DNA of 64,000 bases, taken from NCBI GenBank assembly GCA_024628785.1, contig CP102404.1, forward strand, positions 62,001-126,000, read 5' to 3'. This DNA is from Fusobacteria bacterium ZRK30 (GTDB taxonomy: Bacteria > Fusobacteriota > Fusobacteriia > Fusobacteriales > Fusobacteriaceae). The notes under the pieces were generated by a model. It was not told the origin of the DNA. It worked only from the letters and a program-made list of their open reading frames with translations, and did not search any database. A program made the position numbers and the translations under genes. Of the stretch, positions 35,504 through 59,670 are shown in pieces (within the stretch, counting starts at the first letter, position 1; every line of letters begins with the position of its first letter).

Positions 35504-36193
35504 TTATTTACCCTGTATTAATTTCAAATTATTTTTATGCTCCCATTCTTTCTCTTTATTTTTAATTGCTTTTTTCATAGAATTAACATATTTTTCAAGA
35601 CCTTCAAATTCTGCTTTTAATATATCTAATTCTTTTTTATCTTCAGTTTTAATTATCTGATCTTTTATCTTATCAAGTTTTACAAAATCAACATATGTTC
35701 TTGTTTTTTTACTTTTCTCTTTAAATTCAATTGCTCTCTGATCCTTTACAGGAGCTAATAATTCTTTTATTGTTTCAGCTTTTTTAATTCCCCCGTTAAT
35801 TATCTTTTCCCTGGCATCTGCCGTTACATCTTTATGGGTTAAAAATTTTACCGCCTGAACGGATAGGGAAGAGATAAAATCCTTCTTATCTGGAAATTCT
35901 TGAAATAAAACATATCTTTTACGGTATTCAGATATCTTATCTTTCGTAAGCCCATTGGATTCATACCAATCTGTAAAGTCATTGCTTTTCTTAAAAACAA
36001 GACTTATTTTATTCAGTAAAAAGCATATCTCATATAGTTCTGAACTCACATTTTTAAATATTCTATATAATTTTTTCTCACTTTCTTGCACAAAAATTTT
36101 ATCAAGGTGTCTAATTTCGCGACTCTCGAAATTGAAGCTGGATGTATATTGTTCTTTTTTTACAGCTTTCTGGAGTTCTCCAAATACATCCAT
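35504..36193 (-). CDS. ParA partner, probable centromere-binding (ParB-like) protein
   Basis: 229 residues. It starts immediately after the parA stop. There is a helical central region (IRHLDKIFVQESEKKLYRIF, SNGLTKDKISEYRKRYVLFQEFPDKKDFISSLSVQAVKFLT) that could hold a helix-turn-helix, and a charged coiled-coil C-terminus (DILKAEFEGLEKYVNSMKKAI). I see no ParB N-terminal arginine box. The role as partition partner rests on operon position. One copy of the dispersed 21-bp dyad lies inside this gene (36113). Confidence 0.6.
   Translation of the reverse strand: MDVFGELQKAVKKEQYTSSFNFESREIRHLDKIFVQESEKKLYRIFKNVSSELYEICFLLNKISLVFKKSNDFTDWYESNGLTKDKISEYRKRYVLFQEFPDKKDFISSLSVQAVKFLTHKDVTADAREKIINGGIKKAETIKELLAPVKDQRAIEFKEKSKKTRTYVDFVKLDKIKDQIIKTEDKKELDILKAEFEGLEKYVNSMKKAIKNKEKEWEHKNNLKLIQGK
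36113..36133 (+). repeat. dispersed 21-bp dyad, copy 1 (candidate partition site)
   Basis: AATTTCG, spacer CGACTCT, CGAAATT. The same arms and the CGACT core of the spacer recur at 53937 (reverse) and 58858. Confidence 0.6.
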
Positions 36194-36910
36194 CTACATC
36201 ACTTTCCTTACAATATTTGCAAAGATCTGTTTTATTTCATTATATTGTTTACTCTTAGTTTCCATAATTGTTTTTGATTTTTCTGTAAGCTGCATAATTT
36301 TTGTAGTCTGGTAGATTGGATTAGTTATAACTGCTCCTACACCCTCAAGGCTCTCTTTTAATTTATTTAGGTGTTCTCGTTCCATCTTACTTTTCCCAAC
36401 TCTGTTAGGCACGATCAGTGCCACTTTATCAAAGCCTACTTCTCCAATTAGGTTTATCATTCCCTTAGTAGTCACATTATCAAGGAAAGTAGGTATTACC
36501 ACCTTGTCACTTACTTCCAGAAAGATATTATCTAACTTTAATACCGGTGATCCATCTATTAATATATAGTCATATTGGTTTTTAAAAACTTCTATTACAT
36601 CCAGGAACCTGGTTTCAAAAGTTCTCTTTATCCCGGTAGATGTAAGAGGCACATAGAATAAATCCTCTCTTAATCTTATGAGATCTGAACCTCTACCATC
36701 GATATATCCTTGGAGTCCATCACCATACCCTGATTTGGCTCCTGCCATCTGCATGATATTATTTTGTGAATCAGATGTAAGGATTAATACTTTGTTTTTC
36801 TTATCATCACTTGTTTTTGATAATGTAGAAAGGATGTGAGCAGTCCAGAAACATAGTAATGACTTCCCTACTCCTCCTTTATTATTTTTAAATAATATAA
36901 CTTTAGCCAT
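36194..36910 (-). CDS. ParA-type partition ATPase
   Basis: 238 residues. Deviant Walker A KGGVGKS (residues 11-17), Walker B-like YDYILIDGSPVL and a helical C-terminus. Fits the short ParA/Soj/MinD-like ATPases that segregate plasmids without an N-terminal helix-turn-helix. It lies in an operon between a 56-residue protein (TGATG overlap) and the ParB-like gene. Partition genes in a prophage suggest an extrachromosomal phase. Confidence 0.88.
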   Translation of the reverse strand: MAKVILFKNNKGGVGKSLLCFWTAHILSTLSKTSDDKKNKVLILTSDSQNNIMQMAGAKSGYGDGLQGYIDGRGSDLIRLREDLFYVPLTSTGIKRTFETRFLDVIEVFKNQYDYILIDGSPVLKLDNIFLEVSDKVVIPTFLDNVTTKGMINLIGEVGFDKVALIVPNRVGKSKMEREHLNKLKESLEGVGAVITNPIYQTTKIMQLTEKSKTIMETKSKQYNEIKQIFANIVRKVM

Positions 36911-37080
36911 CAGACAATCACCTTATGCCCTGTGTATCTTCTTTTTCTCTTTATTTCTGATTTAATTTGTTTAGTCTGTCTATTGGTTAATACATATTCA
37001 CTTTTTAATATGAAGTTTAGATCCTCTAAACTCAGAGCTATAATTTCCTGGTGATTTGGTCTTAATCTTTGTTTTTTCAT
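36910..37080 (-). CDS. 56-aa basic protein heading the partition operon
   Basis: AGGAGG six bases before ATG 37080. The product starts MKKQRLRPNHQEIIALSLED and ends RRYTGHKVIV; it is rich in Lys/Arg. Its TGA overlaps the parA ATG. A DNA-binding regulator of the operon is possible but not shown. Confidence 0.65.
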   Translation of the reverse strand: MKKQRLRPNHQEIIALSLEDLNFILKSEYVLTNRQTKQIKSEIKRKRRYTGHKVIV

Positions 37081-37214
37081 TTATTTCCTCCTAATTTTTT
37101 AATTTTATTATAAAAGGTTTTTTCTCTTTATTTAGTATAAATAGATTAAGAATTTCTTTGTTAACTAATAGAAGCTTTCTATGTAATTATTAATCACTTT
37201 TAAGGAGGTAATTT

Positions 37215-37781
37215 ATGAAAATTCTTCTGGAAAATTCAGCACTTATATTAGGAATTGCCATATCTTTCTATACCATTTCTCATGCTCTTTTTTCTTATCT
37301 TAATTTACGCAGAGAAAGGTATTTTGTAATTGCTCGATTATCATTAAAAGTTCAAAAAATAATGGAACTATCTGAAAAAATATGGATTTCTTCAATAGAA
37401 TTGGTAAAAAAAAATAATGAATACCAAAAAGAAATAAATTTGATTAAAAAAAATAATAAATATAAAGAAATCAATGATTTTTACAATTTACTATTAAAAC
37501 AATCTAAAATACTTAACAAAATCGAGCTAAACTTAGATGAAGAGGTTATAGCAAAATCTCTTAAACCTAAACAAATAGATTATCTATGTTGTTTTTTAAT
37601 ATCTCTTTATCGATTAAAAAATGATTTAAATGATCAACTTATTTCTTTTAATAGTGACCCCACAAATCAAAGTGTACTTCAAAACTTTGAAACACTAATA
37701 GAAACACGAGTTATGCATCTTACAGCAAACCGCAAGGATTTAAAAGAAAATCTTCTTTGTATCCTTAACTCTTTTGATTAA
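37215..37781 (+). CDS. membrane-anchored hypothetical protein, 188 aa
   Basis: One N-terminal membrane segment (about residues 6-29) with a short external N-terminus, then a long helical cytoplasmic part with lysine-rich coiled coil (ELVKKNNEYQKEINLIKKNN). AAGGAGG precedes the ATG and a terminator follows. It reads opposite to the partition operon, as a single lysogenic-type cargo gene. A superinfection-exclusion role would fit but is not shown. Confidence 0.65.
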   Translation: MKILLENSALILGIAISFYTISHALFSYLNLRRERYFVIARLSLKVQKIMELSEKIWISSIELVKKNNEYQKEINLIKKNNKYKEINDFYNLLLKQSKILNKIELNLDEEVIAKSLKPKQIDYLCCFLISLYRLKNDLNDQLISFNSDPTNQSVLQNFETLIETRVMHLTANRKDLKENLLCILNSFD

Positions 37782-37814
37782 CTTTAAAAAATATTTCAAA
37801 ATAACTTTATTTTT

Positions 37815-37838
37815 AAAATCCCTTAACAGGGATTTTTG
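37815..37838 (+). terminator. terminator of the 188-aa gene
   Basis: AAAATCCC, TTAACA, GGGATTTTT. Confidence 0.85.
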
Positions 37839-37935
37839 TATTTTCAGTAACAAAACTCCATTTGGTTTTATTGCGATATTAAACTTATCATGATTTCGTC
37901 ATCACTTCTTGATAATCATCCTTTTATTATTCCTC

Positions 37936-38103
37936 CTAATAACTCCATTCAACTTCTTCATTGAGTAAAAAAGCATCTATTGCTTCACTTTCTATTTCAT
38001 CTGTTGTAGTAACTGTTTTACCTCTAAAAGTTAATGTTTTTAGCTGTGGAATAGTATTCCTGTAAAAAGCATCCCAATCTTTTATTTTCCCTTTTATTTT
38101 CAC
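37936..38103 (-). CDS. hypothetical protein, 55 aa
   Basis: GTG 38103 with AGGAGG upstream. The product starts MKIKGKIKDWDAFYRNTIPQ and ends LNEEVEWSY. Not recognised. It diverges from the YjcQ-like gene. Confidence 0.55.
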   Translation of the reverse strand: MKIKGKIKDWDAFYRNTIPQLKTLTFRGKTVTTTDEIESEAIDAFLLNEEVEWSY

Positions 38104-38193
38104 TATTTATTCCTCCTATTTACCTCTTATGCTGTGCCTCCTACTATGTTATAATCAAATCACCACAATAAAATTAATCACAAGGAGGCACAT

Positions 38194-38520
38194 TTGGAAA
38201 CTTATTACATAATCCTTAATTATATTAACGAATGTTATAAAAAAGGTAATCCTATTGAAAATGCTGATTCTTTCCCTTTAAAAGAATTAGAACTCGATGA
38301 ATTAGAATTTAATTTAATCCTTCAAAATTTATTTGATAAAGACTATATTAGAGGCATAGAAATGGTTTATGAGGGAGCCTCAGAGGTACCTGTTATTATT
38401 TCTGAATTAACTGCTACTTTTGATGGTCATCAATATCTATCAGATAATAAAGAACTCTCAAAAACACAAAAAGCTTTAAATTTTATGAAATTAATTAAAG
38501 AAACAATCCCAATGATCTAA
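38194..38520 (+). CDS. YjcQ-family phage protein
   Basis: 108 residues, TTG start with AAGGAGG 5 bases upstream. The wording (IILNYINECYKKG, LELDELEFNLILQNLFDKDYIRG, LTATFDGHQYLSDN) matches the small winged-helix YjcQ family often carried by phages and integrative elements; its role is unknown. Its 3' end overlaps a small convergent gene. Confidence 0.75.
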   Translation: METYYIILNYINECYKKGNPIENADSFPLKELELDELEFNLILQNLFDKDYIRGIEMVYEGASEVPVIISELTATFDGHQYLSDNKELSKTQKALNFMKLIKETIPMI

Positions 38521-38620
38521 ATAAAAACATAATTATAAGGATTAATTTTATTGTGCCTAAAATTGTAAAAATTAAACCAAGTATTATTAATATAATTTCT
38601 TTAAATTTTATCTCGCCCAT
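38495..38620 (-). CDS. small hydrophobic protein, 41 aa
   Basis: AGGAGGAGT just before ATG 38620. One membrane helix (EIILIILGLIFTILGTIKL). Last in a run of four minus-strand genes from 39540; overlaps the YjcQ gene by 26 bases. Confidence 0.6.
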   Translation of the reverse strand: MGEIKFKEIILIILGLIFTILGTIKLILIIMFLFRSLGLFL

Positions 38621-38648
38621 ACTCCTCCTCCTAAGACCTCCTCTATTA

Positions 38649-38849
38649 CTATTTCTTCTCTTTTTTTTGCATTTCTAACTGAGTTAATATGTCTTTGGTA
38701 ACTGACATATCAAGATCTAATGCTACTAATTCTTCTAAATATTTTATATGCCTATCTTGGGCTTTTATCAGTGGTATCATGATCAATACTCCTAATAAGA
38801 GACCTAAAGATAAAGTAAGTATTTCACTGTTCTTAAAAATTTTAACCAC
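38649..38849 (-). CDS. single-pass membrane protein, 66 aa
   Basis: A membrane helix near residues 10-30 (ILTLSLGLLLGVLIMIPLI) is followed by a charged helix. Three bases separate it from the gene before. Looks like a holin- or exclusion-type small protein by shape only. Confidence 0.6.
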   Translation of the reverse strand: MVKIFKNSEILTLSLGLLLGVLIMIPLIKAQDRHIKYLEELVALDLDMSVTKDILTQLEMQKKEKK

Positions 38850-38852
38850 CCC

Positions 38853-39068
38853 CTATAAATTCTCTTCTTCCCTCTCAGAGTTGTCTAATAGCTCTTTTTT
38901 CATCCCTTCAAGATGTTGCTTACAAGCTTCTTCAAAGGAATCTATAGAGTCAATTATCACTTGATCGTCAATATCCACAACCTTCTTTATTTCTTTGTGG
39001 AATTTTATTGAACCCAATGTATTTTCAAGACCTTCCTTAAAATTTTTAACTCTACTCTCAACTATCAT
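38853..39068 (-). CDS. hypothetical acidic protein, 71 aa
   Basis: Starts MIVESRVKNFKEGLENTLGS; mostly helical, with GAGGAG before the ATG. No family recognised. Part of the minus-strand operon controlled from the operator region at 39566. Confidence 0.6.
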   Translation of the reverse strand: MIVESRVKNFKEGLENTLGSIKFHKEIKKVVDIDDQVIIDSIDSFEEACKQHLEGMKKELLDNSEREEENL

Positions 39069-39084
39069 TTGTTTCTCCTCCTCT

Positions 39085-39540
39085 TTACAAAAATCGCTTC
39101 AAAATATTTTCTTCCATCATCTTTTTTTCAATACCTGAGTTTTCACCTCTGAGCTTTTCCCTGCATTTCGTTGCATATTCTATTAGCCAGATCCTGAGTT
39201 CATCATCCGACTTTTCATATTCAAGTTCCAGGGCTCTGATCTGCTTTATTTTTTTAGAGTAGGTCTTATTAAAACTGTTTACTTTTTTATCCAACTCTTT
39301 TAAAGCTTCTTTAATTTCTGTAAGATCATCCAGTTTTAAAATCACCTTTCTTGTTTTAGCGAATGATTTCTGCATATCTTCATTCCATTTATCTAAATTA
39401 AAGCTTTTAATCCGCCTCTCATCATCTAACTGGTCGATAATCTCTCCATGTCTCAGGTGTTCTTCAAATGTTTCTACCCTTACCTGCATATTCATACTTC
39501 TTTCTAGCTCCAATGATAGAGCTGATTCTGGTCTTGCCAT
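39085..39540 (-). CDS. hypothetical coiled-coil protein, 151 aa
   Basis: The frame is open to 39672, but GGGGAGG just before ATG 39540 fixes the start at MARPESALSLELERSMNMQV. Long charged helices (DLTEIKEALKELDKKVNSF, IKQIRALELEYEKSDDELR). It heads the operon that diverges from the repressor and lies next to the TGCG-AAAA-CGCA operator, so it is probably repressed in the lysogen. Confidence 0.6.
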   Translation of the reverse strand: MARPESALSLELERSMNMQVRVETFEEHLRHGEIIDQLDDERRIKSFNLDKWNEDMQKSFAKTRKVILKLDDLTEIKEALKELDKKVNSFNKTYSKKIKQIRALELEYEKSDDELRIWLIEYATKCREKLRGENSGIEKKMMEENILKRFL

Positions 39541-39565
39541 AATACCTCCCCTTTTTATTAAATAA

Positions 39566-39585
39566 ATATTGCGAAAACGCAATAT
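39566..39585. promoter_or_regulatory. repressor operator O1
   Basis: ATATTGCG, AAAA, CGCAATAT: a perfect 20-bp dyad 26 bases upstream of the minus-strand operon. Confidence 0.75.
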
Positions 39586-39637
39586 AATTAATAAAAATAA
39601 AAAAATCAAGCTTATAAAATAACTATAACTCATAATA

Positions 39638-39649
39638 TGCGAAAACGCA
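39638..39649. promoter_or_regulatory. repressor operator O2
   Basis: TGCG, AAAA, CGCA in the repressor / minus-operon intergenic region. A degenerate third site, TGTAAAAACGCA, lies at 39660-39671. Confidence 0.7.
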
Positions 39650-39711
39650 ACATATTTTTTGTAAAAACGCAAAAAAAAAGAGTAAAATATATTATTTACT
39701 GGAGGTATATA

Positions 39712-40392
39712 ATGTTAAAAAATAAAGAAGTTTTCAAACTTTTAAAAGATAAAAGAAAAGAAAAAGGGTATAGCCTTGAAAGTGTAGAAGAAATTTTAAA
39801 GCAAAACTATAATATAGAAATTAACAGTAGTAACATTTCAAGAATGGAAAATGGAAAAGTAAAAACTGTAGATGCTAAAATTATAGGGGCATTATGCAAA
39901 ATTTATAATTTGGATATTTTTGATATTTATAAAAAATTAGAATATCTTAATGAACAAGATCTAGAGAAGAAAAAAATAAAAATTGGGAATATAGACTTGA
40001 ATAATCCAATTACTGAATTTAAACAAATTCCTATCTACGATTCTATTTCAGCAGGTTTCGGGAGTTCTAAAAGCGGTATCATCGGTCATATGCCATTACC
40101 CCAAACTAATGGGTTTAAGGGTGATGTAATAGGGATTAGAGTAGATGGTGATTCTATGCAGCCTGATATTAAAGACGGGGATACAGTCCTTATAAAAATA
40201 GAAGTTATGCCTGAAAATGGAGAAGTAGGGGCGTTTATCTTAAATGATGAAGGATTATTAAAAAGATATAAAAAAACAGATCGTGGAGATGTAATATTAT
40301 CCAGCGACAACAAAGATTATGATCCTATCATAATAAATGAATCCGATGAATTTCACATCGTAGGAAAAAAAGTAGGAGTTTTTAATCATTAA
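39712..40392 (+). CDS. LexA/CI-type phage repressor with S24 peptidase domain
   Basis: 226 residues from ATG 39712 (GGAGG 6 bases upstream). The N-terminal helix-turn-helix spans about residues 4-75. The S24 domain has the cleavage site Ala114-Gly115 (ISAGFG), Ser148 (GDSMQP) and Lys184 (GLLKRY), so RecA-stimulated self-cleavage and induction by DNA damage are expected. TGCG-4-CGCA sites flank it. It maintains lysogeny and probably autoregulates. Confidence 0.93.
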   Translation: MLKNKEVFKLLKDKRKEKGYSLESVEEILKQNYNIEINSSNISRMENGKVKTVDAKIIGALCKIYNLDIFDIYKKLEYLNEQDLEKKKIKIGNIDLNNPITEFKQIPIYDSISAGFGSSKSGIIGHMPLPQTNGFKGDVIGIRVDGDSMQPDIKDGDTVLIKIEVMPENGEVGAFILNDEGLLKRYKKTDRGDVILSSDNKDYDPIIINESDEFHIVGKKVGVFNH

Positions 40393-40477
40393 GAAAAATA
40401 CTTATCTGAAAGAATATACAAAACTATGCACAGATAAATAAAAATAAGATAATAAATCTAATCCTGGAGGAGTTTAT

Positions 40478-41557
40478 ATGAAAAATATCCCTAACGAATT
40501 ATATGAAGAAATTAAGTCTAATATGAAAAGACCAGAAGGAACTGTAACATTTGAATATCGAAATCCTGAGTTGTTTAATTCAAAATCAACTGGCGGTACT
40601 ATACTTGAAGTAATTACAGGAGATCACATTTTTTTACTGCAACAAAGTTGTGATTTTAAATTAAAGTTTATACATTTTTCACCTGGAACTGAAACGAGAG
40701 TCGCTATTATTGATTTAAAAAAAATCAAAAAATCACCGAATGTATTAATAATTTTGAGATGGTCTACTTCTGAAATAAAACTTTCTATTTCTCCAGCTCC
40801 ATTAATTAAAGTCGAGGACCTGACTACATCTATAGGCATAAAATCAGATACAAGTTATAGAGTTATTGACGGTAATATATTAGAAATAGGAGGTCCTAAT
40901 ACAGTTGTTATGGGTACAAGGATTATGTCAGAAGGAAAATGTGTTTTGGCACCTACAGCTATCGAAACTTGGAACAATACTATCGATGCGATTAAAATTT
41001 TACAAAGTAGTGAATCGGAGAAAGGTTATTCACATGAAGTTGTATTAAGTAATTTAACCATCTCAACACTTGTAACTGGATTCGAAACATATGCTATGAA
41101 AAGGTGCATTGAGATTAGTAAAGAAGGAGTTCAACCAGATATTCCTTCTTTAGTTAAACGAGTTTATTCAACATATGAACGAGAAAATGACTATCCTAAA
41201 CATGATGAAATCAAGGCAAAGGAGAAAGGCAATTCGTTTTATGAGGAATTAATAACAAATATGGTTAATTTTCAAAGTTATCAAGAATGTAAGCAAGCAT
41301 TTTCTAAATCTTATGGAATTAAATTTGGAGAGATTGATTATACTGCCAATTTATTAGAAAACTTGCAAAAAATAATTAAATTTAGACACAAGATTATCCA
41401 TGTTTCTCCAATGTTAACAATAATAAATGAAGAAGAAGTTCCGAAAGAAAAACCTATATTTTCAAATAAAGATTATGCAGAAAAGTCTATTAATACGTTT
41501 AATGAGTTTATTCAAAAACTCCATAATACTACTTTAAAACTACAACGGGTAGACTAA
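40478..41557 (+). CDS. HEPN-domain protein, candidate abortive-infection factor
   Basis: 359 residues. The N-terminal half (about 1-165) is beta-rich and unrecognised. The C-terminal half is helical (about 180-355) and ends with the HEPN RNase signature R-x4-H: RHKIIH, Arg303 to His308, between two helices. It follows the repressor by 85 bases with its own ribosome site (GGAGG), the usual place for lysogenic-conversion genes. An RNase acting when another phage infects is inferred from the motif and location. Confidence 0.65.
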   Translation: MKNIPNELYEEIKSNMKRPEGTVTFEYRNPELFNSKSTGGTILEVITGDHIFLLQQSCDFKLKFIHFSPGTETRVAIIDLKKIKKSPNVLIILRWSTSEIKLSISPAPLIKVEDLTTSIGIKSDTSYRVIDGNILEIGGPNTVVMGTRIMSEGKCVLAPTAIETWNNTIDAIKILQSSESEKGYSHEVVLSNLTISTLVTGFETYAMKRCIEISKEGVQPDIPSLVKRVYSTYERENDYPKHDEIKAKEKGNSFYEELITNMVNFQSYQECKQAFSKSYGIKFGEIDYTANLLENLQKIIKFRHKIIHVSPMLTIINEEEVPKEKPIFSNKDYAEKSINTFNEFIQKLHNTTLKLQRVD

Positions 41558-41854
41558 AAGGAAATAATCAATTAGCACACCTCTTCTCACCATATCTCTA
41601 TAGTTTTATCGGGAGCACCTTCTTATTTTTGGATATAGTCGAATATAACGTAGAAGTGATGAAACTAAAAAGATATCGAAAAATCAACAATATTTGAACC
41701 CATCTATTTTGAGGGGGTTCAAATTGAATGCATTCTCTTTGTAGGGATTCACTTTGAATACCTTCAAACCAAGGGGGGTAATAATAGTAAACATATTTAA
41801 ATAAAATACATGTAATAATAATATACGCTTTTAGATAAAAAACATATTTAATAA

Positions 41855-41897
41855 AAAAAGTAGTAGTAATAGAAAAATTGCTGCTGCTTTTTATTTT
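41855..41897 (+). terminator. hairpin upstream of the Cro-position gene
   Basis: AAAAAGTAGTAGTAAT pairs, with G-U pairs, to ATTGCTGCTGCTTTTT followed by ATTTT. The 41558-41854 stretch has no gene; it holds TTTGAACCC/GGGTTCAAA (41693-41723) and the palindrome GAATGCATTC (41726-41735). Confidence 0.6.
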
Positions 41898-41919
41898 ATA
41901 ATTTTTTTAAAAATTATTC

Positions 41920-41933
41920 TTGCAAATACGCAA
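41920..41933. promoter_or_regulatory. repressor operator O3
   Basis: TTGCAAATACGCAA, one mismatch from the TTGCG-N4-CGCAA form, 32 bases before the gene at 41966. Confidence 0.65.
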
Positions 41934-41965
41934 AAAATAAAGTAAACTACATTTGAGGTGAGAAT

Positions 41966-42166
41966 ATGTGGGTAACAATAAATTCATATAAAGACATAAA
42001 AGCATTATCTATCATAAAAGAATTAGAGTTACTGGAAGTCGCTAAGGAAATGGGCTATACTTCAATTTGGGGACTTAAAGTTGCGTTAAAAAATAAAAGA
42101 AAGAAAGATAAAATTTTGAAAAAGGCTTATATTTTTTTTGAAAACCATAGTGCGAATACGCAATAA
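41966..42166 (+). CDS. small helical protein in Cro position, 66 aa
   Basis: Starts MWVTINSYKDIKALSIIKELEL with GAGGTG upstream. Contains LLEVAKEMGYTSIWGLKVALKNKRKK, which can be read as a helix-turn-helix. It lies between operators O3 and O4, so an early lytic regulator is likely; function not shown. Confidence 0.55.
   Translation: MWVTINSYKDIKALSIIKELELLEVAKEMGYTSIWGLKVALKNKRKKDKILKKAYIFFENHSANTQ
42151..42162. promoter_or_regulatory. repressor operator O4
   Basis: TGCG, AATA, CGCA, at the end of the 66-aa gene and upstream of the replication-type gene. Confidence 0.65.
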
Positions 42167-42185
42167 GTTGTTTTGTAAAATAATA

Positions 42186-42284
42186 TTTATTATTTGAAAC
42201 TCGAGGTTCTCAAGAGGTCAGATCCTTGACCTCGGATTTGAAATAATAAATTTATAAAAAATAAAATAAGTAGAGAACCTCGAG
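42186..42284. repeat. interlocked inverted repeats before the replication gene
   Basis: Three dyads share 99 bases: TTTATTATTT/AAATAATAAA (42186-42195, 42241-42250), CTCGAGGTTCTC/GAGAACCTCGAG (42200-42211, 42273-42284) and GAGGTCA/TGACCTC (42214-42220, 42227-42233). The first two overlap in pseudoknot order. May be an origin of replication or a structured leader. Confidence 0.7.
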
Positions 42285-42309
42285 ACTTCTCTGCTGAAAG
42301 GAGTAGCTT

Positions 42310-43188
42310 ATGTTTACAGTAGAGCAATTTAAAGGGACAGTCTATGAAAATGGATTTGGGATGATCCCTAAAAAAATAATGTGTGATAGAGATCTTAGCA
42401 GTAATGCTAAACTTTTATACGCATTTTTAGCCTCACATAGTTTTAACGGGAGTAAGGCTACTCCTAAAAAAACTACAATAAATCATCTATTGGGATGGGG
42501 AGAGTCCAGGACCGATAAAGCATTAAAAGAGTTAAAACTAAGAGGTCTTATCCAGGTAGAAAAATATTTAATTCCTGCCAGTGAGAGAACGAACCCTAAA
42601 CAGAGATATAGAAATCATTATGTATTAACTAATTCCCTAGCAGATGTAATAGAGATAAGTGTTAAAGAAACTAAAAAAGAAGAAGAAAAGCAAAAAGAGC
42701 CTAAAATTGAAACAGTAAAAAAAGATAAGAAAAATAAGCAGAATAAAAAAAATGATACCAGCTCAGGAGATTTAAACCAAGAGGACTCTAATTTTGATAA
42801 AGAATTAAAAGAAACTCTGGAAACATCAAATTTTAAGAACCTAAATCTAAATACAATAAAAAATATAAAAAAATCTGCTGACGGATCTTTGGAAGAGGTT
42901 AAAAAAGTAATTAAATATATGAAATCAAAGGGAAAACCAATGAGTCCTGATATCCTTATAGCCATATTAAGAGATAAAGATCATCTGGTTCCAAAAGCAG
43001 AAAGACCTAAAAAATTAACCAGAAAAGAAAAAGCAGAAATTATGATAAAGGAACTAGGTTCTAAACAAATAGAAAAGCTTAGAAAAGAAATTGCTGATGA
43101 AACAGGATTTCCTAAAGAAAGTGAGGATGTAAAAACTTTTTTAGAGAGTCACCTATGCAGCATGTTTAAAAATAATTATAGGGACTAG
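42310..43188 (+). CDS. phage replication protein with winged helix (DnaD/RepN-like)
   Basis: 292 residues. The N-terminal domain (IPKKIMCDRDLSSNAKLLYAFLASHSF ... NHLLGWGESRTDKALKELKLRGLI) is the winged helix seen in phage and plasmid replication initiators and replisome organisers. A lysine/glutamate-rich linker (about 120-165) leads to a helical C-terminus with LKNLNLNTIKNIKK, reminiscent of DnaD-type tails. GAAAGGAG lies before the ATG. Position after the early regulator supports a replication role. Confidence 0.75.
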   Translation: MFTVEQFKGTVYENGFGMIPKKIMCDRDLSSNAKLLYAFLASHSFNGSKATPKKTTINHLLGWGESRTDKALKELKLRGLIQVEKYLIPASERTNPKQRYRNHYVLTNSLADVIEISVKETKKEEEKQKEPKIETVKKDKKNKQNKKNDTSSGDLNQEDSNFDKELKETLETSNFKNLNLNTIKNIKKSADGSLEEVKKVIKYMKSKGKPMSPDILIAILRDKDHLVPKAERPKKLTRKEKAEIMIKELGSKQIEKLRKEIADETGFPKESEDVKTFLESHLCSMFKNNYRD

Positions 43189-44009: not shown

Positions 44010-44192
44010 GTGGATAAAGAAAGAAAAGAAATAAGGTGTAAAAAATGTAATAAACTTCTTGCAGTAGTTAATGGGAAAGAAATAGAATTCACTATTAAGA
44101 CAAAAGCAAAAGTGACTCCTATAAAGTATGAGCTAAAATGTAGAATTTGTGGGAAAGTAAGAAAAGGAAAAATACAAGAGAATTTAATTTAG
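44010..44192 (+). CDS. Com-like zinc-finger protein, 60 aa
   Basis: GTG 44010 after GAGGTGG is the likely start; the frame is open upstream to 43956 but without a site. Two CxxC knuckles (IRCKKCNKLLAVV and LKCRICGKVRKG) resemble the Mu Com translational activator family. Confidence 0.68.
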   Translation: MDKERKEIRCKKCNKLLAVVNGKEIEFTIKTKAKVTPIKYELKCRICGKVRKGKIQENLI

Positions 44193-52433: not shown

Positions 52434-52715
52434 ATGCTTACACTAGACGAAATAAAGCTTTATCTAAGGGTAGATGATAGTGAAGAGGATAAATTAATCA
52501 CTCAATTAGAGCTATTCAGCAGAGAAGAAATAAAGAACTCCACAGGGGTTGAATATGTTGAAGAAAATCCAACAGAAACTTATAAATTAGCACAACTTAT
52601 AATCATAGCAGATAGATATGAAAATAGAGCCTCTGAAGACCAAGAATTTAAGCCAAATAATATTCTTTCTTGTCTATATAGTAAATTAAAATATTCGGTG
52701 GTGGAAAATGGCTAA
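52434..52715 (+). CDS. head-tail connector (gp6-like)
   Basis: 93 residues: LTLDEIKLYLRVDDSEEDKLITQLELFSREEI is the standard start of the HK97 gp6 adaptor family. It overlaps the next gene by 8 bases. Confidence 0.9.
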   Translation: MLTLDEIKLYLRVDDSEEDKLITQLELFSREEIKNSTGVEYVEENPTETYKLAQLIIIADRYENRASEDQEFKPNNILSCLYSKLKYSVVENG

Positions 52716-53043
52716 GAAAAAGAAATCTTTAGCCAGCAGGCTGAATAATAGGCTTGAAATATGGGGAAACGCCAAGGTCAAAACAGACCTTGGCACTACA
52801 AATGGGCCAAAACTTATAAAAAAGATATGGGGTAAAATATCGCCTATCTATGGATTTTCTAGCGGTGGAGAGGCTAACACTACTAAAAGTACTGTTAATT
52901 TGAAAATTATGATTAGAAAAACAGAGATTTCAAAGGCTAATTGGGTAATACATAAAGGGCAAAGATACGATATAAGCCATATTTTGCCTAATTATGATAG
53001 TAATGAATATTTGGATTTAAACGTGTTTTTATATGAGGAGTAG
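52708..53043 (+). CDS. head closure / head-tail joining protein (SPP1 gp16-like)
   Basis: 111 residues. LASRLNNRLEIWGNAK and WVIHKGQRYDISHILPNYDSNEYLDL are typical of the small beta-barrel stopper family. Order in the connector module supports it. Confidence 0.85.
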   Translation: MAKKKKSLASRLNNRLEIWGNAKVKTDLGTTNGPKLIKKIWGKISPIYGFSSGGEANTTKSTVNLKIMIRKTEISKANWVIHKGQRYDISHILPNYDSNEYLDLNVFLYEE

Positions 53044-53049
53044 ATATTT

Positions 53050-53475
53050 ATGAGTGATTTAGATGATTTTGCCAGTGATCTATTAAAAATTTCAGAGGAA
53101 TTATCTAGTGGTAAAGAAGCTAAAAAGTTTTTAAAAAAAGAAGCCGGTAAATTAAAAACCAAAACTCTTAATAATGCTAAATCTAAAGTAAAAGCCCATA
53201 GCGGTAATTACTTTAAATCTATAAAGGCCGGGAATGTCTATGATAGTGAGGAGGGGTTATCTGTAGATGCTTATTCTGCAAGTAGTGCAGCACATCTGAT
53301 AGAAAACGGCCACATTATAAAAGGCAGAAATAAAAAAGATGGATCTGAAGGAGAAACTCACGGGTTCAAAAAAGGTTTATATATATTCGATAATACCGCT
53401 AAGGACTATAAAGAAGAGTTTGAAACAAATATAGAGAATTTTAAAAATGAATTATTTGCTAAAAATGGATTTTAA
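53050..53475 (+). CDS. neck / tail-completion protein (HK97 gp10-like)
   Basis: 141 residues. KFLKKEAGKLKTKTLNNAK, then SSAAHLIENGHII and the final glycine/phenylalanine are typical of the gp10 family. Confidence 0.85.
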   Translation: MSDLDDFASDLLKISEELSSGKEAKKFLKKEAGKLKTKTLNNAKSKVKAHSGNYFKSIKAGNVYDSEEGLSVDAYSASSAAHLIENGHIIKGRNKKDGSEGETHGFKKGLYIFDNTAKDYKEEFETNIENFKNELFAKNGF

Positions 53476-53488
53476 GTGGGTGTAAAAA

Positions 53489-53938
53489 ATGACAAAATAC
53501 AAAGATATATTAGCAGCATTAGTTAAATATTTAGAAACACTTCCAGGGGAAGTAGAGATACAATCACAAGATATTGAGGAAGGATTTTCCAGGCCATCTT
53601 TTTTTATAGAGTTAGATAATATAAAAGTTGATGACTTTATGAAAACTTCAAAAATAAGGGATCTGACAGTAAGAATAATTTATTTTCCAAAAGATAAACA
53701 TATTAATCAAGTTGAGCTATTGGATATGCAGGAATCACTTGAGGAGTTATTTATAGAAAATAACTACATAGAAATACTACCTGAAACAGAAGACAGAGAG
53801 GCTGTTTTGGTAGAGGTAGAAAATGCTAAATTTAATGAAAATAAAAATATATTACAATTTCAATTTGATATAAACCTGGATGAATATTATATCAGAGAAG
53901 ATAATTATGAAAAAATGGAAAACTTGGAAATTAATTAA
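53489..53938 (+). CDS. phage tail terminator family protein (DUF6838-type)
   Basis: 149 residues. ILAALVKYLETLPGEVEI, QDIEEGFSRPSFFIEL and LTVRIIYFPKD match the terminator next to the sheath gene in PBSX-like phages. Confidence 0.8.
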   Translation: MTKYKDILAALVKYLETLPGEVEIQSQDIEEGFSRPSFFIELDNIKVDDFMKTSKIRDLTVRIIYFPKDKHINQVELLDMQESLEELFIENNYIEILPETEDREAVLVEVENAKFNENKNILQFQFDINLDEYYIREDNYEKMENLEIN

Positions 53939-53957
53939 TTTCGTAAGTCGCGAAATT
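53937..53957 (-). repeat. dispersed 21-bp dyad, copy 2 (candidate partition site)
   Basis: AATTTCG, spacer TAAGTCG, CGAAATT; read in reverse the spacer is CGACTTA, matching the CGACT core of copies 1 and 3. It begins inside the stop region of the tail-terminator gene. Confidence 0.6.
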
Positions 53958-53970
53958 AGAAGGAGGAAAT

Positions 53971-55074
53971 ATGAGTCCAACAAATAACGGAATGCCTAAA
54001 TTAGAAATAATCTTTAAAGGACTTGGAGTAAGTGCAGTTGCCAGGGGAGAAAGGGGTACAGCTGTGTTGATCTTACCTGATGATACAACTGCGGATTATT
54101 TAGTTAAGTATAGATCCATTGAAGATTTTACATCTCAGGAAGAAGCTAAATTTGAAACAGGGAATACCTTATTTATAAAAGATGCTTTAGAAGGAATCCC
54201 TTTAGAGTTATATGTAGCAACAACAGCTAAAACTACTCCCGGTTTAGCTGCTACTCTTTTAAAACTAAAAGGAGCTATACCTAGAAATTCATGGATAGGA
54301 ATCGCATCTAGTACTCAAAAAGATCAAGATGATCTAATAACATGGGTGAAAGCTCAGAGAAAAAATAATAAAAAAAGATATAAAGCATTTACATACAAGG
54401 GCACTACAACAGATGATAAGGGAATAACTAATTTAACCACAGAAAAAGTAACATTCAAAGATGATAGAGGTGAAGTTACCGGGGATAACGCTATTCCATT
54501 TTTAATGGGCTGCCTAGCAGGACTTCCACTATCCATGTCAGCAATCGCAAAACCACTGACTAAATTTAAATGCGTAACAGAACCAGATGATCTAGATGAA
54601 GCTATTTCAAATGGAGAATTTATCTTATTCAATGATGAAGGGATAGTAAAGGTCGCAAGGGGAGTAAATTCATTAGTTACACTAGGTCAGGATGTAACTT
54701 TAGAGATGACGCAAATAAACACTGTAGAAAAGATGGATTTGATTTTTTGTGATATTTATAATGCATGGAACAACAATTTCAAAGGCAGATATCCTAATAT
54801 TCTTAACAATCAAATTTTATTAATATCTTCTATTAATGCTTATTTAGGATTATTAGCATTAGACTATATCTTAGATCCTGAATTTGATAATCGGATAGAG
54901 ATCTATCTAGAAAAACAAAAATTAGCCAATTATGCAAAATATGGACAGGAGGCTGTAGATAAATGGAGTGATACAAAAATCATGCAAATGACTGTATCTA
55001 CAAACGTATATATGAGATCAAACCTCAAAATATCAGGTATCATGGAAGATTTATTTATGGACATATTTATGTAA
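53971..55074 (+). CDS. tail sheath protein (XkdK-like)
   Basis: 367 residues. FKGLGVSAVARGERGTAVLIL is the usual sheath N-terminus; the C-terminus (KIMQMTVSTNVYMRSNLKISGIMEDLFMDIFM) carries the conserved strand that interlocks subunits. Proves a contractile tail. Confidence 0.93.
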   Translation: MSPTNNGMPKLEIIFKGLGVSAVARGERGTAVLILPDDTTADYLVKYRSIEDFTSQEEAKFETGNTLFIKDALEGIPLELYVATTAKTTPGLAATLLKLKGAIPRNSWIGIASSTQKDQDDLITWVKAQRKNNKKRYKAFTYKGTTTDDKGITNLTTEKVTFKDDRGEVTGDNAIPFLMGCLAGLPLSMSAIAKPLTKFKCVTEPDDLDEAISNGEFILFNDEGIVKVARGVNSLVTLGQDVTLEMTQINTVEKMDLIFCDIYNAWNNNFKGRYPNILNNQILLISSINAYLGLLALDYILDPEFDNRIEIYLEKQKLANYAKYGQEAVDKWSDTKIMQMTVSTNVYMRSNLKISGIMEDLFMDIFM

Positions 55075-55147
55075 CGATTTTTCAACATATAAACACAAGA
55101 AAGAAATTGAAAAAACGTCTTAGAAGACAAATAAGGAGGTCATTATT

Positions 55148-55555
55148 TTGGGGAAAAAAGCCAGCGGGAATAATTATAACAGTGGAAATAAAGGGACTAT
55201 CTGGATAAATGGGATTCCAATTTTAAATTGTTATAAGGCAAGTATTGAAAAAAAAATTGAATATGAGGAAATCCCACACCCGACTAAACCCGGATCAAAA
55301 ATAAGGGTAGAGGTGGGACATACAATAGAAGTAGGGTTTGCATTTAAGAAAACCCTCGAAACTAAATTAATCGATTTTGGATCAGATGATATCACTATGA
55401 TTATGACTGACACGAATAACAATACTACAGTTGTAGAAACAACAGAGGCTAGCGGAATAACTTTTGATTCTACTGTAATAAAAGCATTTGAGAAGGGTAA
55501 AGTTGGAGAGATCGAGATGTCAGGGCAAGCTGAAGACATGAGAGAGTTAGTTTAA
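55148..55555 (+). CDS. tail tube protein (XkdM-like)
   Basis: 135 residues, TTG start after AAGGAGG. NYNSGNKGTIWINGIPILNCYKASI and VEIPHPTKPG-like EIPHPTKPGSKIR are XkdM signatures. Follows the sheath gene as in PBSX. Confidence 0.92.
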   Translation: MGKKASGNNYNSGNKGTIWINGIPILNCYKASIEKKIEYEEIPHPTKPGSKIRVEVGHTIEVGFAFKKTLETKLIDFGSDDITMIMTDTNNNTTVVETTEASGITFDSTVIKAFEKGKVGEIEMSGQAEDMRELV

Positions 55556-55630
55556 AATATTGTATTCCCTTTCTATTAGTTAAATGAGAGGGAATATAAT
55601 AATTAAGTGATTAATAGGAGAAGATTAAAT

Positions 55631-56011
55631 ATGCAATTACAAGAATTTATAAATAAAGCAAGAGCAAGGAAAGACAACGAAGTCAAAGTGATAAAAATAG
55701 AGATTAAAGATATAGGGGCTGTCGAGTTCACAAGACCTGATAACAAAAAAATATTGGAATATATGGAAAAAGCAGATAAAGAGGACCTTAGTGTGACAGA
55801 GATGTTTGGCCTTACCAAAGAAATGTTATATCTGAACTGTCCTGTACTACAAAAAAAAGAAGTCCGAGAAGAGTTTAAGCCCAATAATCCTTATGATTTG
55901 GTCACAGATTTATTTGGTATCCATGAAACTACTGACATTATGGAGAAGTTCATGAAAGGCTTTGGGTTGGATGAAGAAGAAAAGAAAAATGAGGAAGAAA
56001 TAAAAAACTAA
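55631..56011 (+). CDS. tail assembly chaperone G (XkdN-like)
   Basis: 126 residues from ATG 55631 (GGAG about 10 bases upstream; the frame is open to 55607). IKDIGAVEFTRPDNKKILEYMEKAD and EVREEFKPNNPYDLVTDLFG match XkdN. The last codons ATA AAA AAC TAA carry a canonical slippery heptamer directly before the stop, so part of the ribosomes should extend into the -1 frame. Confidence 0.9.
   Translation: MQLQEFINKARARKDNEVKVIKIEIKDIGAVEFTRPDNKKILEYMEKADKEDLSVTEMFGLTKEMLYLNCPVLQKKEVREEFKPNNPYDLVTDLFGIHETTDIMEKFMKGFGLDEEEKKNEEEIKN
56002..56008 (+). promoter_or_regulatory. -1 programmed frameshift site A_AAA_AAC
   Basis: The heptamer ends one base before the zero-frame stop TAA (56009-56011). It fits X_XXY_YYZ in the correct phase, and the -1 frame is open for 67 more codons. 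Confidence 0.85.
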
Positions 56012-56211
56012 TAGGAGATAGTGATAGCCCAGGGGAGCTTTACTGGGTATCCCATTATCTCCAAAAAGGACATGAATTAGAAAGACTGTTAAATTTAAGC
56101 AGCATTGAAAAAAAATTCTATATACAATCTATAAATATAGAAAATGAAAAAAAAGTTAAATATGACATTGAAAAAATGGAATTATTTTTTAAAGTTTTGG
56201 GAGGTGGGTAA
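56008..56211 (+). CDS. chaperone T extension, expressed by -1 frameshift as GT
   Basis: The -1 frame from CTA 56008 to TAA 56209-56211 encodes LIGDSDSPGELYWVSHYLQK and 47 further residues ending VLGGG. It has no start codon context of its own and lies exactly where the T domain of XkdN/GT proteins belongs, before the tape measure gene. Confidence 0.85.
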   Translation, partial: LIGDSDSPGELYWVSHYLQKGHELERLLNLSSIEKKFYIQSINIENEKKVKYDIEKMELFFKVLGGG

Positions 56212-58312
56212 GATATCTAGAGTCATAAAGACCATCTTAAGATTAAAAGATGAAATGTCCCCTGGTCTCAAAAAAAATTCTGAAGCTACCAAAAGACTTA
56301 GTGAAAAAGTAAAAAAATCAAGAGATCAGATTAAAAAATTTCAGGTTGCAAATACAAAAGCAACGGCAGGATTAAAAGAACAAAACGATAAAATAAAAGC
56401 TTTGACTTCCAGGAAAAATAAAGAAAGTAAGACTATGAAAAAACTAGCAGGACAAATGGAAAAGTATAAAAATCAGACAGGGCTAACTTCTAAACAGATA
56501 GCTAAAAACAATCAAAAATTAAAAGAAGCTAGAACTAGATACAATAAATTAGGCGGATCTATCTCCACTATAAATAAATCACTCAAAGATGCTAACGGTT
56601 CAGTAAAAAAATACAATGAAAGTATAAAGGCTAACAATAAGGAAATTGGATCTATAAATAATAAGATAAGCGAGTATACTAAAAAAATAAAAAAAAATAT
56701 AGCCACACAAAAGGATGCACAAAGTGCTTTGAACCGTTGGGGAAAAGGTGCTGTTAAAAGCATAGATAAAGTTATAGCCAGAACTGTTAAATTGGGAGCA
56801 GTAATGACCGGTGCAGTAGCAGCACTAGGAATTAAAGTAGGTCTTGGCGAGGCTATGGATATGGAAGGGTATAGGATGCAGTTGGAAACAGCTGTTAAAG
56901 ACACTGAAAAAGCGGGAAAGTTAATGAGTCGAGCTGTTAATTTTGCAGATATAACACCGTTTGAAACTGGAGAAGTTGTAGAAGCTACAGCTACAATGGA
57001 AATGTACGGTCTTTCTTCTACTAGGTGGTTAAGAGATATAGCGGATATGGCTGGATCAACCAACAAACAAATTGGTGATGCTACAGAGGCTATGGTAGAT
57101 GCAAATGTAGGCGAGTTTGAAAGGTTAAAGCAATTTGGGATATCCAAAGATATGATAATGGCAGCCTCAGCTAAAAAGTATGGAGACAAGGTAGTTTTTA
57201 ATGCCAAAGGGCAGATGCTCGATCAAATTAAGATGCAATCTGTACTCCAGGAACTTATGCAAGAAAAATTTAAAGGCGGGGCAGAAAAGCAAGCCAGGAC
57301 AATGAAAGGTCTTTTATCAACAGTAACAGGTAGTATAAAATCATCATTAAAAACAATAATGGGGATTCAAAAAGACGGAACTATTAAACAAGGAAGTATG
57401 TATGAAAAATTAAAAGAGCAGATAAAAGGAGTGACCGATACCCTCCTAAGATGGAAAGAAGACGGGACTATAACAAAAATAGCTTCTAATGTAACCGATG
57501 CAGTCATGAAAATAATAAATATTATTAAAAAACTATTTAATTTTGTTCAAAAATATAGAGGGATCATAGAATCAGCACTAGTATTTGTAGGAGTTATATA
57601 CACTACAATTAAAGCATTCAAAGCATTACAGACTATTGTAATGGCTGTAAACATAGTTACAGGACTTTTGAATAAAACTTTGATAATTTCACCTCTTGGA
57701 TGGGTAGCACTCGCCATTGGTGCAGTGGTCGGAGCATTATATCTATTATGGAGACACATGGATACCATAATCGCAGTCTTTAAAGGAGCTTGGGATTGGA
57801 TAAAGAATCTGATAAGTAAAACAAGTGATTTTGTACTAGTATTAGCCGGGCCAATTGCACCTCTGCTGCTATTAATTAAACACTTTGATAAGATCAAAGA
57901 AACAGCCAGTAAAGCTTTTGGATGGGTTAAAAAGATCTTTGGTTTAGATAACAAAGATAAAGAGTTCAATGTAACTATGAATAAAAAAGAAAACTCTGAG
58001 ATTGGTTTTCAAAATGGCAGCCCTGGAAGACAAATGGAGCAATATGCAAAAGGCGGGATTGCTACAAAACCAAGTATATTTGGAGAAGCCGGTGCAGAGA
58101 TTGCCATACCTCTTAATCAATCTAAGAGATCTAAAGATCTATTGGGGCAGGCTAACAACATAATAGGCGGGAGTAACCCTGGAAAAGTTATTAATAACTA
58201 TAAGATAATATTTACAGGTGATGTATATGGATTTGAAGACTTTAAAGAAATTTTAGCTAGGGGATTTTATGAAATTATTCAAGAAAATAAATCAAATGTA
58301 GTGAGGAGTTAG
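56204..58312 (+). CDS. tape measure protein
   Basis: About 702 residues from GTG 56204, giving VGKISRVIKTILRLKDEMSPGLKK, the usual tape-measure opening; ORF extension to 56144 is unlikely to be used. Long coiled coil (about 20-180), a hydrophobic glycine-rich core (LGAVMTGAVAALGIKVGLGEAM), several membrane-like helices and a C-terminal IFGEAGAEIAIPLNQSKR motif. Determines tail length. Overlaps the T extension by 8 bases. Confidence 0.93.
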   Translation: MGKISRVIKTILRLKDEMSPGLKKNSEATKRLSEKVKKSRDQIKKFQVANTKATAGLKEQNDKIKALTSRKNKESKTMKKLAGQMEKYKNQTGLTSKQIAKNNQKLKEARTRYNKLGGSISTINKSLKDANGSVKKYNESIKANNKEIGSINNKISEYTKKIKKNIATQKDAQSALNRWGKGAVKSIDKVIARTVKLGAVMTGAVAALGIKVGLGEAMDMEGYRMQLETAVKDTEKAGKLMSRAVNFADITPFETGEVVEATATMEMYGLSSTRWLRDIADMAGSTNKQIGDATEAMVDANVGEFERLKQFGISKDMIMAASAKKYGDKVVFNAKGQMLDQIKMQSVLQELMQEKFKGGAEKQARTMKGLLSTVTGSIKSSLKTIMGIQKDGTIKQGSMYEKLKEQIKGVTDTLLRWKEDGTITKIASNVTDAVMKIINIIKKLFNFVQKYRGIIESALVFVGVIYTTIKAFKALQTIVMAVNIVTGLLNKTLIISPLGWVALAIGAVVGALYLLWRHMDTIIAVFKGAWDWIKNLISKTSDFVLVLAGPIAPLLLLIKHFDKIKETASKAFGWVKKIFGLDNKDKEFNVTMNKKENSEIGFQNGSPGRQMEQYAKGGIATKPSIFGEAGAEIAIPLNQSKRSKDLLGQANNIIGGSNPGKVINNYKIIFTGDVYGFEDFKEILARGFYEIIQENKSNVVRS

Positions 58313-58720
58313 ATGAGAGAAATATATTTTGCAATTGGAGAAGAGGTTCTCCAATTGCCTTATGTCAATGAAAAAATACAAGTTGGTGAAGGCCTTAATA
58401 CAGAGGAATTTGAGACTGTAGACGGCAAAACATTAACATTAGTAGGGAATAGAGGGAATAGAACTATCAGTATAAGTAGTTTTTTCCCGACAAAACAATA
58501 TAAATGGCTCAATTCTAATTCAAAACTTTCTACAGAATGTCTGGATTTCTTTAAAAGAAACAGAAAAAAAGTATTAAGGATTGTTTATGTAAATGGGGAA
58601 GAGACATTGTGTAATATGTTGTGTACTATATCAAACTACACAGTAGCACCTAAAAAAAATGGTGATTATAATTACTCTTTAGAAATTAAAGAATATATAG
58701 ATCCAAAGGAGGTATTTTAG
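58313..58720 (+). CDS. tail/baseplate protein (XkdP-like N-terminal part)
   Basis: 135 residues. FETVDGKTLTLVGNRGNRTISISSFFPTKQYKWL and YSLEIKEYIDPKEV correspond to the XkdP tail-associated domain; the LysM repeat of longer relatives is absent. Abuts the tape measure gene and overlaps the next start by one base. Confidence 0.82.
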   Translation: MREIYFAIGEEVLQLPYVNEKIQVGEGLNTEEFETVDGKTLTLVGNRGNRTISISSFFPTKQYKWLNSNSKLSTECLDFFKRNRKKVLRIVYVNGEETLCNMLCTISNYTVAPKKNGDYNYSLEIKEYIDPKEVF

Positions 58721-59670
58721 TGGTTACTTTAAATTTAATCAGAGATAGTAAAAGAATAGATATAACCAACCTTACAGGAAATATAAGTTTAAGTGACAGC
58801 TTAGATACTTTAGGAGCTGCTTTAAATTTTGATATCGCCAGGAATTTTAACGACCCAAATTTCGCGACTTCCGAAATTGTAGAAGCTGGTAATCTTATTG
58901 AATTTAAAAACGCAGGAAAAATTGTTTTCATCGGGATCATCATAACAATAGGGATTGAAAAATTTAAGAAAAGTATAAAATGTTTAGACTTTTCTTTTTA
59001 TTTGAATAAAAATAAGCTGATTAAACAATTTAAAAATATAGGTGCATCTGATGCAATAAAAAATATGTGTGATCAGATAGGTATAAAAAAAGGAGATATT
59101 GATAATATTCCAACTTCTATCACTAAGATTTATAAAAATAAGACGGTAGCAGAGATAATAAAGGATATTCTTGTACAAGTTTTAGATGAAACAGGAGAAA
59201 AATATAAGTTAGAGATAAATAACGGAGCATTGGATGTAAAAAAACACAGGCTCATAGAAGCTAAAACTAGATATAAATTTTGGGGAAATATAACTAAAAA
59301 TGAAGATATGACAGAGATGAAAAATGTTATTTTAGTGACTTCCAACAACCAGGATGATGTTAACACAATGGGAGAAGCCATTGACAAGGACGGCATTGAT
59401 AAATATGGGAGATTGCAAGAGATTGTAGAAGTTGAACCAAAGGATATTTCAAAAGTTCGAAATATCGCAAATAAGAGACTCAAAGAGTTAAACAAAGTAT
59501 TTACAAGTGTTAATGTCCAAACTTTAGGTGATAACTCATTGAGGTCCGGAAGAATAATTGAAGTGGTAAATAAAGAATTTAATTTAAATAGTAAATACTT
59601 AATTAAAAGTGCTAATCACAAATATTCTAAAGGTAATCATACCACCAATTTAAATTTAGAGGTGAACTAA
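58720..59670 (+). CDS. baseplate hub protein (XkdQ / late control D-like)
   Basis: 316 residues, GTG start overlapping the previous stop. DSLDTLGAALNFDIARNF and the C-terminal LSGRIIEVVNKEFNL-type hub strands fit XkdQ. Copy 3 of the dispersed dyad lies inside this gene (58858). Confidence 0.87.
   Translation: MVTLNLIRDSKRIDITNLTGNISLSDSLDTLGAALNFDIARNFNDPNFATSEIVEAGNLIEFKNAGKIVFIGIIITIGIEKFKKSIKCLDFSFYLNKNKLIKQFKNIGASDAIKNMCDQIGIKKGDIDNIPTSITKIYKNKTVAEIIKDILVQVLDETGEKYKLEINNGALDVKKHRLIEAKTRYKFWGNITKNEDMTEMKNVILVTSNNQDDVNTMGEAIDKDGIDKYGRLQEIVEVEPKDISKVRNIANKRLKELNKVFTSVNVQTLGDNSLRSGRIIEVVNKEFNLNSKYLIKSANHKYSKGNHTTNLNLEVN
58858..58878 (+). repeat. dispersed 21-bp dyad, copy 3 (candidate partition site)
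   Basis: AATTTCG, spacer CGACTTC, CGAAATT, inside coding sequence. Confidence 0.6.

Follow-up and report, generated by a model that had tools for sequence, protein, structure and literature searches.

Scattered inverted repeats in a Fusobacteria prophage as probable centromere sites of a phage-borne ParA-ParB-like partition system

The DNA analyzed here (the window) is a stretch of 64,000 nucleotides from Fusobacteria bacterium ZRK30 (GenBank assembly GCA_024628785.1, contig CP102404.1). It corresponds to C1:62001-126000 of a 3.6-Mb genome (G000) in which contig C1 measures 1.04 Mb. A prophage begins with a serine integrase gene at 33749 and extends beyond the end of the window; judged by the reading of open reading frames (ORFs), metabolic genes replace it by about C1:132 kb. 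The prophage carries an S24 repressor, a DnaD-like replication gene, and genes for terminase, portal, capsid, tail sheath, tape measure, and baseplate. Adjoining the integrase is a two-gene operon in which the stop codon of parA abuts the start of a gene encoding a 229-amino-acid (aa) ParB-like protein (Table 1). A ParA with a deviant Walker A motif next to a putative centromere-binding gene is a feature of type I ParABS partition systems. This report concerns that gene pair and a palindromic repeat, here called the dyad, that recurs over the prophage.

Table 1. Coordinates of the features discussed, in window numbering
Feature	Position	Strand	Basis
Large serine recombinase (phage integrase), left prophage end	33749..35149	-	Protein family matches
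229-aa predicted ParB-like centromere-binding protein	35504..36193	-	Predicted ParB/Spo0J-like helix-turn-helix (HTH) domain and C-terminal helices, without CTPase domain; homologues
ParA-family ATPase, 238 aa	36194..36910	-	Deviant Walker A KGGVGKS at residue 11; Pfam AAA_31/CbiA, phrog_164 ParA-like
Dyad 1 (AATTTCGCGACTCTCGAAATT), codons 21-27 of the ParB-like gene, frame 0	36113..36133	.	Conserved in homologues
Dyad 2 (AATTTCGTAAGTCGCGAAATT), overlapping a stop codon, within the 32-bp intergenic gap ahead of the tail-sheath gene	53937..53957	.	Counterpart in a relative, 1 arm change
Dyad 3 (AATTTCGCGACTTCCGAAATT), codons 47-53 of a tail (gpD-like) gene, frame 0	58858..58878	.	Counterpart in a relative, all 14 arm bases kept
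TTGCGNANACGCAA-like sites by the S24/Cro-type repressor gene, motif distinct from the dyad	39569..39672	.	Motif search

An earlier note on this DNA had reported AATTTCG-N7-CGAAATT at 36113, 53937, and 58858, with two of the copies inside genes. All three copies were found again with zero mismatches in the arms; the first and third lie in the ParB-like gene and a tail gene, and the second spans a stop codon and the short gap behind it. The 19-bp core ATTTCGNNANTNNCGAAAT, when one mismatch was allowed, matched three times in the window, compared with 0.02 matches expected from shuffles. The window holds three positions with no mismatch to the core, none with one or two mismatches, four with three, and 48 with four. 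Because no position has one or two mismatches, the three dyads stand discretely apart from the background. The weaker half-site that had been proposed near 44184 differs at 4 of 14 bases and is one of the 48 such places, so it is attributed to chance. A fourth dyad of the prophage lies 704 bp past the window end (C1:126704, equivalent to 64704 in window numbering; L097:16705), near the 3' end of a small gene that reads as holin-like. The four dyads span about 29 kb of the prophage as single repeats scattered over the phage genome, a layout that would suit a dispersed centromere.

We then characterized the sequence of the dyad in 58 of the 61 forward core matches obtained from 98 Fusobacteriota genomes (three repeats of identical strings were omitted). 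The half-sites conform to A-T-T-T-C-G-N-R-A on each side independently. Independent half-sites argue for recognition as DNA, as by a dimeric DNA-binding protein. A fixed orientation of CGACT in the spacer, another feature of the initial description, holds for the three copies in the window and does not extend to the family, in which the spacer reads N-R-A-S-T-Y-N with independent halves; the exact CGACT-containing pattern had zero matches in viral contigs. An RNA hairpin was rejected as an explanation, since spacer positions 8 and 12 were complementary in 32 of the 58 sites, compared with 32.5 expected for independent halves.

The exact 21-mer occurs four times in the whole genome, three of them within the window, and 11 cores were found, compared with one match for a reversed control pattern; equal frequency over the host chromosome, which the earlier note had named as refuting its reading, was thus not seen. 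Among the 98 genomes, the core was present in 19 (61 copies in total), and the control pattern gave 21 matches with at most two per genome. A protein search detected the ParB-like protein in 29 of these genomes. A close homologue (best E value of about 1e-18 or better, a cutoff of our own choosing) was present in 16 genomes, and 15 of these carried an exact core, compared with 4 of the 82 other genomes; the Fisher value for this genome-level association ignores shared ancestry. When sorted by place, 16 cores lay inside a ParB-like gene, 1 was immediately adjacent to such a gene, 17 were at a distance of up to 45 kb, and 27 were elsewhere, so that 34 of 61 were in, beside, or within 45 kb of such a gene. 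The data support a dyad that is nearly restricted to phage elements, is scattered over them, and tracks the gene of the ParA partner.

The same pattern was seen in virus records. In 20 records, which were partly picked for carrying the dyad, we counted 43 matches with at most one mismatch and a single control match, and several records had four or five copies. Fusobacterium phage Funu1 (KR131710) carries the same ParA-partner gene pair together with three one-mismatch dyads (0.01 expected), one of them inside the homologous gene. A literature search on Fusobacterium phages, limited to openly accessible papers and covering passages of PMC8310279, turned up no mention of such sites or of such a system. 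Closely spaced pairs of dyads, with centers 20 or 34 bp apart, were observed at G056:C4:51220/51240, G114:C1:22366/22386, G098:C1:13656/13676, and G000:C2:1474257/1474291. The G000 pair lies between neck and tail genes, and abutting pairs 20 bp apart also occur in some virus records.

The copy within the ParB-like gene allowed us to separate conservation of DNA from conservation of peptide. It translates as F-[DN]-F-x-S-x-E-I. We compared 29 homologous genes after dropping near-duplicates and allowed the dyad at most one mismatch. The dyad was found inside the gene in 25 of them, and in 23 it occupied the codons of F-[DN]-F-x-x-x-E-[IL], usually codons 21 to 27. The second phenylalanine, which lies inside the dyad, was encoded by TTC in 23 of 23 cases, compared with 2 of 23 for the phenylalanine two codons upstream and 50 of 252 for other phenylalanines. 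Synonymous codons at the dyad are therefore fixed so as to keep the dyad. Two homologues with lysine in place of serine keep the peptide and have lost the dyad there, and they carry it at nucleotide 122 in another frame. In G050:C129 the dyad lies directly 3' of the ParB-like gene. Four of the 29 genes (L012, L019, L169, and L170) have no dyad within one mismatch. The phage of L012 has an exact copy 35 kb away, no dyad was found in the 14.8-kb contig of L019, and L169 and L170 have a shorter, relaxed core, TTCGNRASTYNCGAA, about 0.5 kb downstream. In two further homologues (G019 and G026), the distance from the matched part to the downstream TTCGNRASTYNCGAA is about 0.75 kb; seven such cores occurred in the 420 kb scanned, compared with 0.1 in crude shuffles of two-base blocks. 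Since the dyad shifts relative to the peptide yet remains by the gene, the element follows the gene and not the peptide.

Copies distant from the operon are also conserved. In a relative whose late genes are about 76 to 85% identical in DNA sequence, the arms of dyad 3 are kept at 14 of 14 bases and those of dyad 2 at 13 of 14, with changed spacers. Of 44 exact sites in the fetched regions, 21 are in ORFs, 22 between codirectional genes, one in a convergent gap, and none in a divergent gap. Many of the dyad-bearing gaps are 29 to 63 bp long and lie inside operons.

No Pfam or NCBIfam match recurs among members of the 229-aa family, the Pfam ParB N-terminal domain is listed for 0 of 24 homologues, and a search of the PDB by sequence returned nothing of use. 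An AlphaFold model (16 sequences; mean predicted local distance difference test score of 77) is all-helical. It has a poorly ordered start of about 28 residues ahead of a long helix (residues 29 to 47), a confident core to about residue 146, a disordered linker, and C-terminal helices. When the model was compared with the PDB, eight of the 10 best entries were Spo0J, ParB, or Noc, whose DNA-binding domains matched model residues 28 to 149 (Z, 8.8 to 6.6). The best match was 1vz0 (Z of 8.8; root mean square deviation of 2.7 over 107 residues); two Raf1 entries were also among the top 10, and the 11th match had a Z of only 4.6. The model thus indicates that the protein likely has a ParB-like fold and DNA-binding domain. 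As modeled, and in line with the lack of a domain family match, it is without the N-terminal CTPase domain.

The closest parallel that we found is ParT of the Streptomyces plasmid SCP2, a ParB-like protein without a CTPase domain that loads and diffuses without cytidine triphosphate (CTP) (PMC12260392). From a short, flexible N terminus, ParT continues with a long helix, a middle HTH domain, and, beyond a flexible linker, a C-terminal domain for dimer formation, and the SCP2 parS site is an 18-bp inverted repeat inside the parT coding sequence (PMC12260392). Both systems place a partner predicted or known to lack the CTPase domain beside ParA, with a similar domain order and an inverted repeat of similar length in the partner's own gene (PMC12260392). 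The phage protein and the dyad share this anatomy. We infer that the gene pair partitions phage DNA and that the dyads serve as centromere (parS) sites for a ParA-ParB-like system encoded by the prophage itself, a reading that the comparative data support well and to which we assign a probability of about 0.8. By analogy, the whole is probably a phage-borne, CTP-independent ParABS system with a scattered centromere. There are also differences. The two proteins have no detectable sequence similarity, the present system belongs to a phage rather than a plasmid and to another phylum, and several sites are scattered here, whereas the chromatin immunoprecipitation sequencing peak in SCP2 is centered on parT (PMC12260392). 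In that study, ParA-linked ParT homologues were found almost only in Actinomycetota (PMC12260392).

A mechanism along these lines can be proposed. The 229-aa protein would bind each 19- to 21-bp palindrome with one HTH per half-site, and its C-terminal helices could dimerize. The bound protein would stimulate the ATPase of nucleoid-bound ParA. Copies of the phage DNA, while excised or in a plasmid-like state, would then be carried or spaced by the gradient of ParA that results. Lacking the CTPase domain that enables canonical ParB to slide, the protein may work as ParT of SCP2 does. Such a centromere would not form one cluster; one dyad lies within or beside the ParB-like gene, and a few others are spread over the late region, some within genes and some in short operon gaps.

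The earlier note had likened the repeats to the scattered centromere of phage N15, in which the sites are located partly within genes. That comparison stands for the scattered single sites, which track the gene of the ParA partner, and it fails as a claim of kinship, so the N15 label is an analogy. Like the phage described here, N15 is temperate and has ParA/ParB-type genes; its centromere is made up of a few single inverted repeats, IR1 to IR4 (PMC7205306), and scattered single centromere sites are known for both N15 and RK2 (PMC5016525). N15 is a linear plasmid, however, and its SopB is close to the SopB of F. The present element has a serine integrase and lies as a prophage within a contig of 1.04 Mb; it also has a different dyad sequence, a small ParA (Walker motif at residue 11), and a partner without a recognizable SopB-type CTPase domain; the protelomerase family PF16684 had no match in the genome. 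RK2 also has single palindromes scattered over the element, as sites (OB) of KorB (PMC5016525), but the RK2 protein uses CTP (PMC12704722), in contrast to a partner with no recognizable CTPase domain here. The extrachromosomal mycobacteriophage RedRock resembles the prophage in having phage ParAB and more than one centromere locus; it differs in lacking an integrase and in having parS loci built as clusters of eight direct 8-bp repeats (PMC7157519).

Several observations weigh against a centromere role. The prophage is integrated, and its need for partition is not obvious, although SXT-family integrative and conjugative elements partition their excised form (PMC4542580). The top Foldseek match of the 229-aa protein was a ParB that is not significant alone (E value of 0.46), and nothing emerged when the family was compared by profile with three canonical ParBs of the same bacterial order. 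Similarity to ParT was not detected by hhalign or hidden Markov models, methods that are weak for a single sequence. Twenty-seven of the 61 cores lie outside 45 kb of any detected homologue: eight are in a fragmented assembly (G058), and prophage-like regions in which neither ParA nor a ParB-like gene was detected account for most others; seven of the 27 are in the ZRK30 genome. Conversely, 8 of 26 closer ParB-like matches lack an exact dyad on the same contig up to a distance of 45 kb, and when homologues lacking the canonical dyad were screened for a different one nearby, nothing clear emerged.

Instead, the ParB-like protein could chiefly silence or regulate transcription from dispersed operators, in the manner of KorB or VirB, and so keep late genes quiet in the lysogen, with partition secondary or absent. 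Dispersed silencing sites are also exemplified by the stoperators of mycobacteriophages. The spread of the dyads over late genes and the 22 of 44 sites in codirectional gaps would fit such a role, as does the regulatory activity described for the ParB relatives VirB and the RK2 protein. However, 21 of the 44 sites fall within ORFs, in some cases close to gene ends, and divergent gaps have none. The absence from divergent gaps and the many operon gaps of 29 to 63 bp speak against ordinary operators, though not against silencing by spreading. Furthermore, the gene lies directly downstream of parA, ParA was present in all 18 loci selected for the ParB-like gene, and the phage repressor has different operators of its own. 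We consider a primarily regulatory role unlikely.

We regard as less likely still that some other conserved phage protein, acting for example in recombination, packaging, or replication, reads the dyad and that the link to the ParB-like gene reflects shared residence in one phage group. Dyads in prophages without detectable ParAB, and the recurrence of some other early genes, could be taken to favor such a reader. In the 18 loci, which include some near-duplicates and have limited flanks, the integrase recurred in 8, the repressor in 10, and the ORF at 39085 in 9, compared with ParA in 18, and the dyad copy in or beside the ParB-like gene is the most constant one, relocating yet staying by that gene. 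It is hardly credible that the dyads arose by chance or as a side effect of a peptide, F-x-F-x-S-x-E-I, that is conserved in unrelated proteins. Three of the four prophage dyads do read in a frame that gives similar residues. The shuffles, the TTC bias confined to the dyad, homologues with the copy in another frame or in noncoding DNA, the position of about half of the sites outside ORFs, and the lack of a random spread over the host chromosome all speak against such an origin.

Two more specific readers were rejected. Palindromes resembling TTGCGNANACGCAA lie around the repressor gene at 39569-39672, 41920-41933, and 42150-42163, with eight matches at up to two mismatches on both strands, compared with 1.2 expected. 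They are probable repressor operators, and the S24 repressor, having these distinct sites, was rejected as the reader of the dyad. The host chromosomal ParB was rejected because the ZRK30 genome had no match to PF17762 (HTH_ParB), whereas 9 of 14 control genomes were positive. In 13 genomes of the same family, no convincing chromosomal HTH_ParB was seen, the single weak match being to an ORF whose reading does not suggest a ParB; other families of the same order do show chromosomal HTH_ParB proteins.

Of the seven distant cores in the ZRK30 genome, six are in two prophages in which no ParAB was found, and one is by a tyrosine recombinase gene. The two prophages (G000:C1:648733-663198 and G000:C2:1474257-1490131; L099-L103) show no ParA or ParB-like gene near the dyads. 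The site layout of the second resembles that of a ParAB phage in G056, with a pair followed by sites about 10 kb and a further 5 to 6 kb on. Such regions may be relatives in decay, or they may make use of a ParAB that another phage encodes. A possible parallel is SGI1, which carries parS-like sites and uses the ParB of another element (PMC10954446), hitchhiking on IncC plasmids; the borrowing of another phage's ParAB by the prophages here is, in contrast, conjecture. It is a doubtful extension of the centromere reading that multiple scattered dyads, with one in the partner's own gene, offset absent CTP sliding and that prophages that have lost parAB retain the dyads and, by hitchhiking, are maintained or compete by way of the ParAB of a coresident phage.

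CTP switching was deemed basic to ParB-type partition until ParT, which is known mostly from Actinomycetota. If the dyads are centromere sites, the phages described here would hold a second, sequence-unrelated, phage-borne family without the CTPase domain, with a readable centromere across Fusobacteriaceae, including Funu1. Natural variants in the number of sites, their spacing, and their position relative to genes would then make the building of CTPase-less complexes directly testable. The finding also raises the question of why integrated prophages retain a partition system, and the dyad provides a computable marker for this phage group.

Some further loci were observed along the way. Tail-like regions of three genomes contain single dyads (G027:C1:1235297, G028:C1:79882, and G029:C1:2601820; L129-L131), and a search around the G027 and G028 copies detected no ParAB. 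The dyad is in a segment of about 200 bp; between G027 and G029, the flanks of this segment have changed places and orientation, so that it may be an invertible switch close to tail genes. A 92-kb contig of the ZRK30 genome carries another ParA with a distant relative of the 229-aa protein (G000:C5:13286-14718; one internal stop; E value of 8e-9), and no dyad was found on this contig. Finally, the G000:C2 prophage includes a cassette (L141:12669-18597) with a reverse transcriptase (PF00078), an AAA ATPase (PF00004), and a protein that reads as subtilase-like, which together look like defense cargo.

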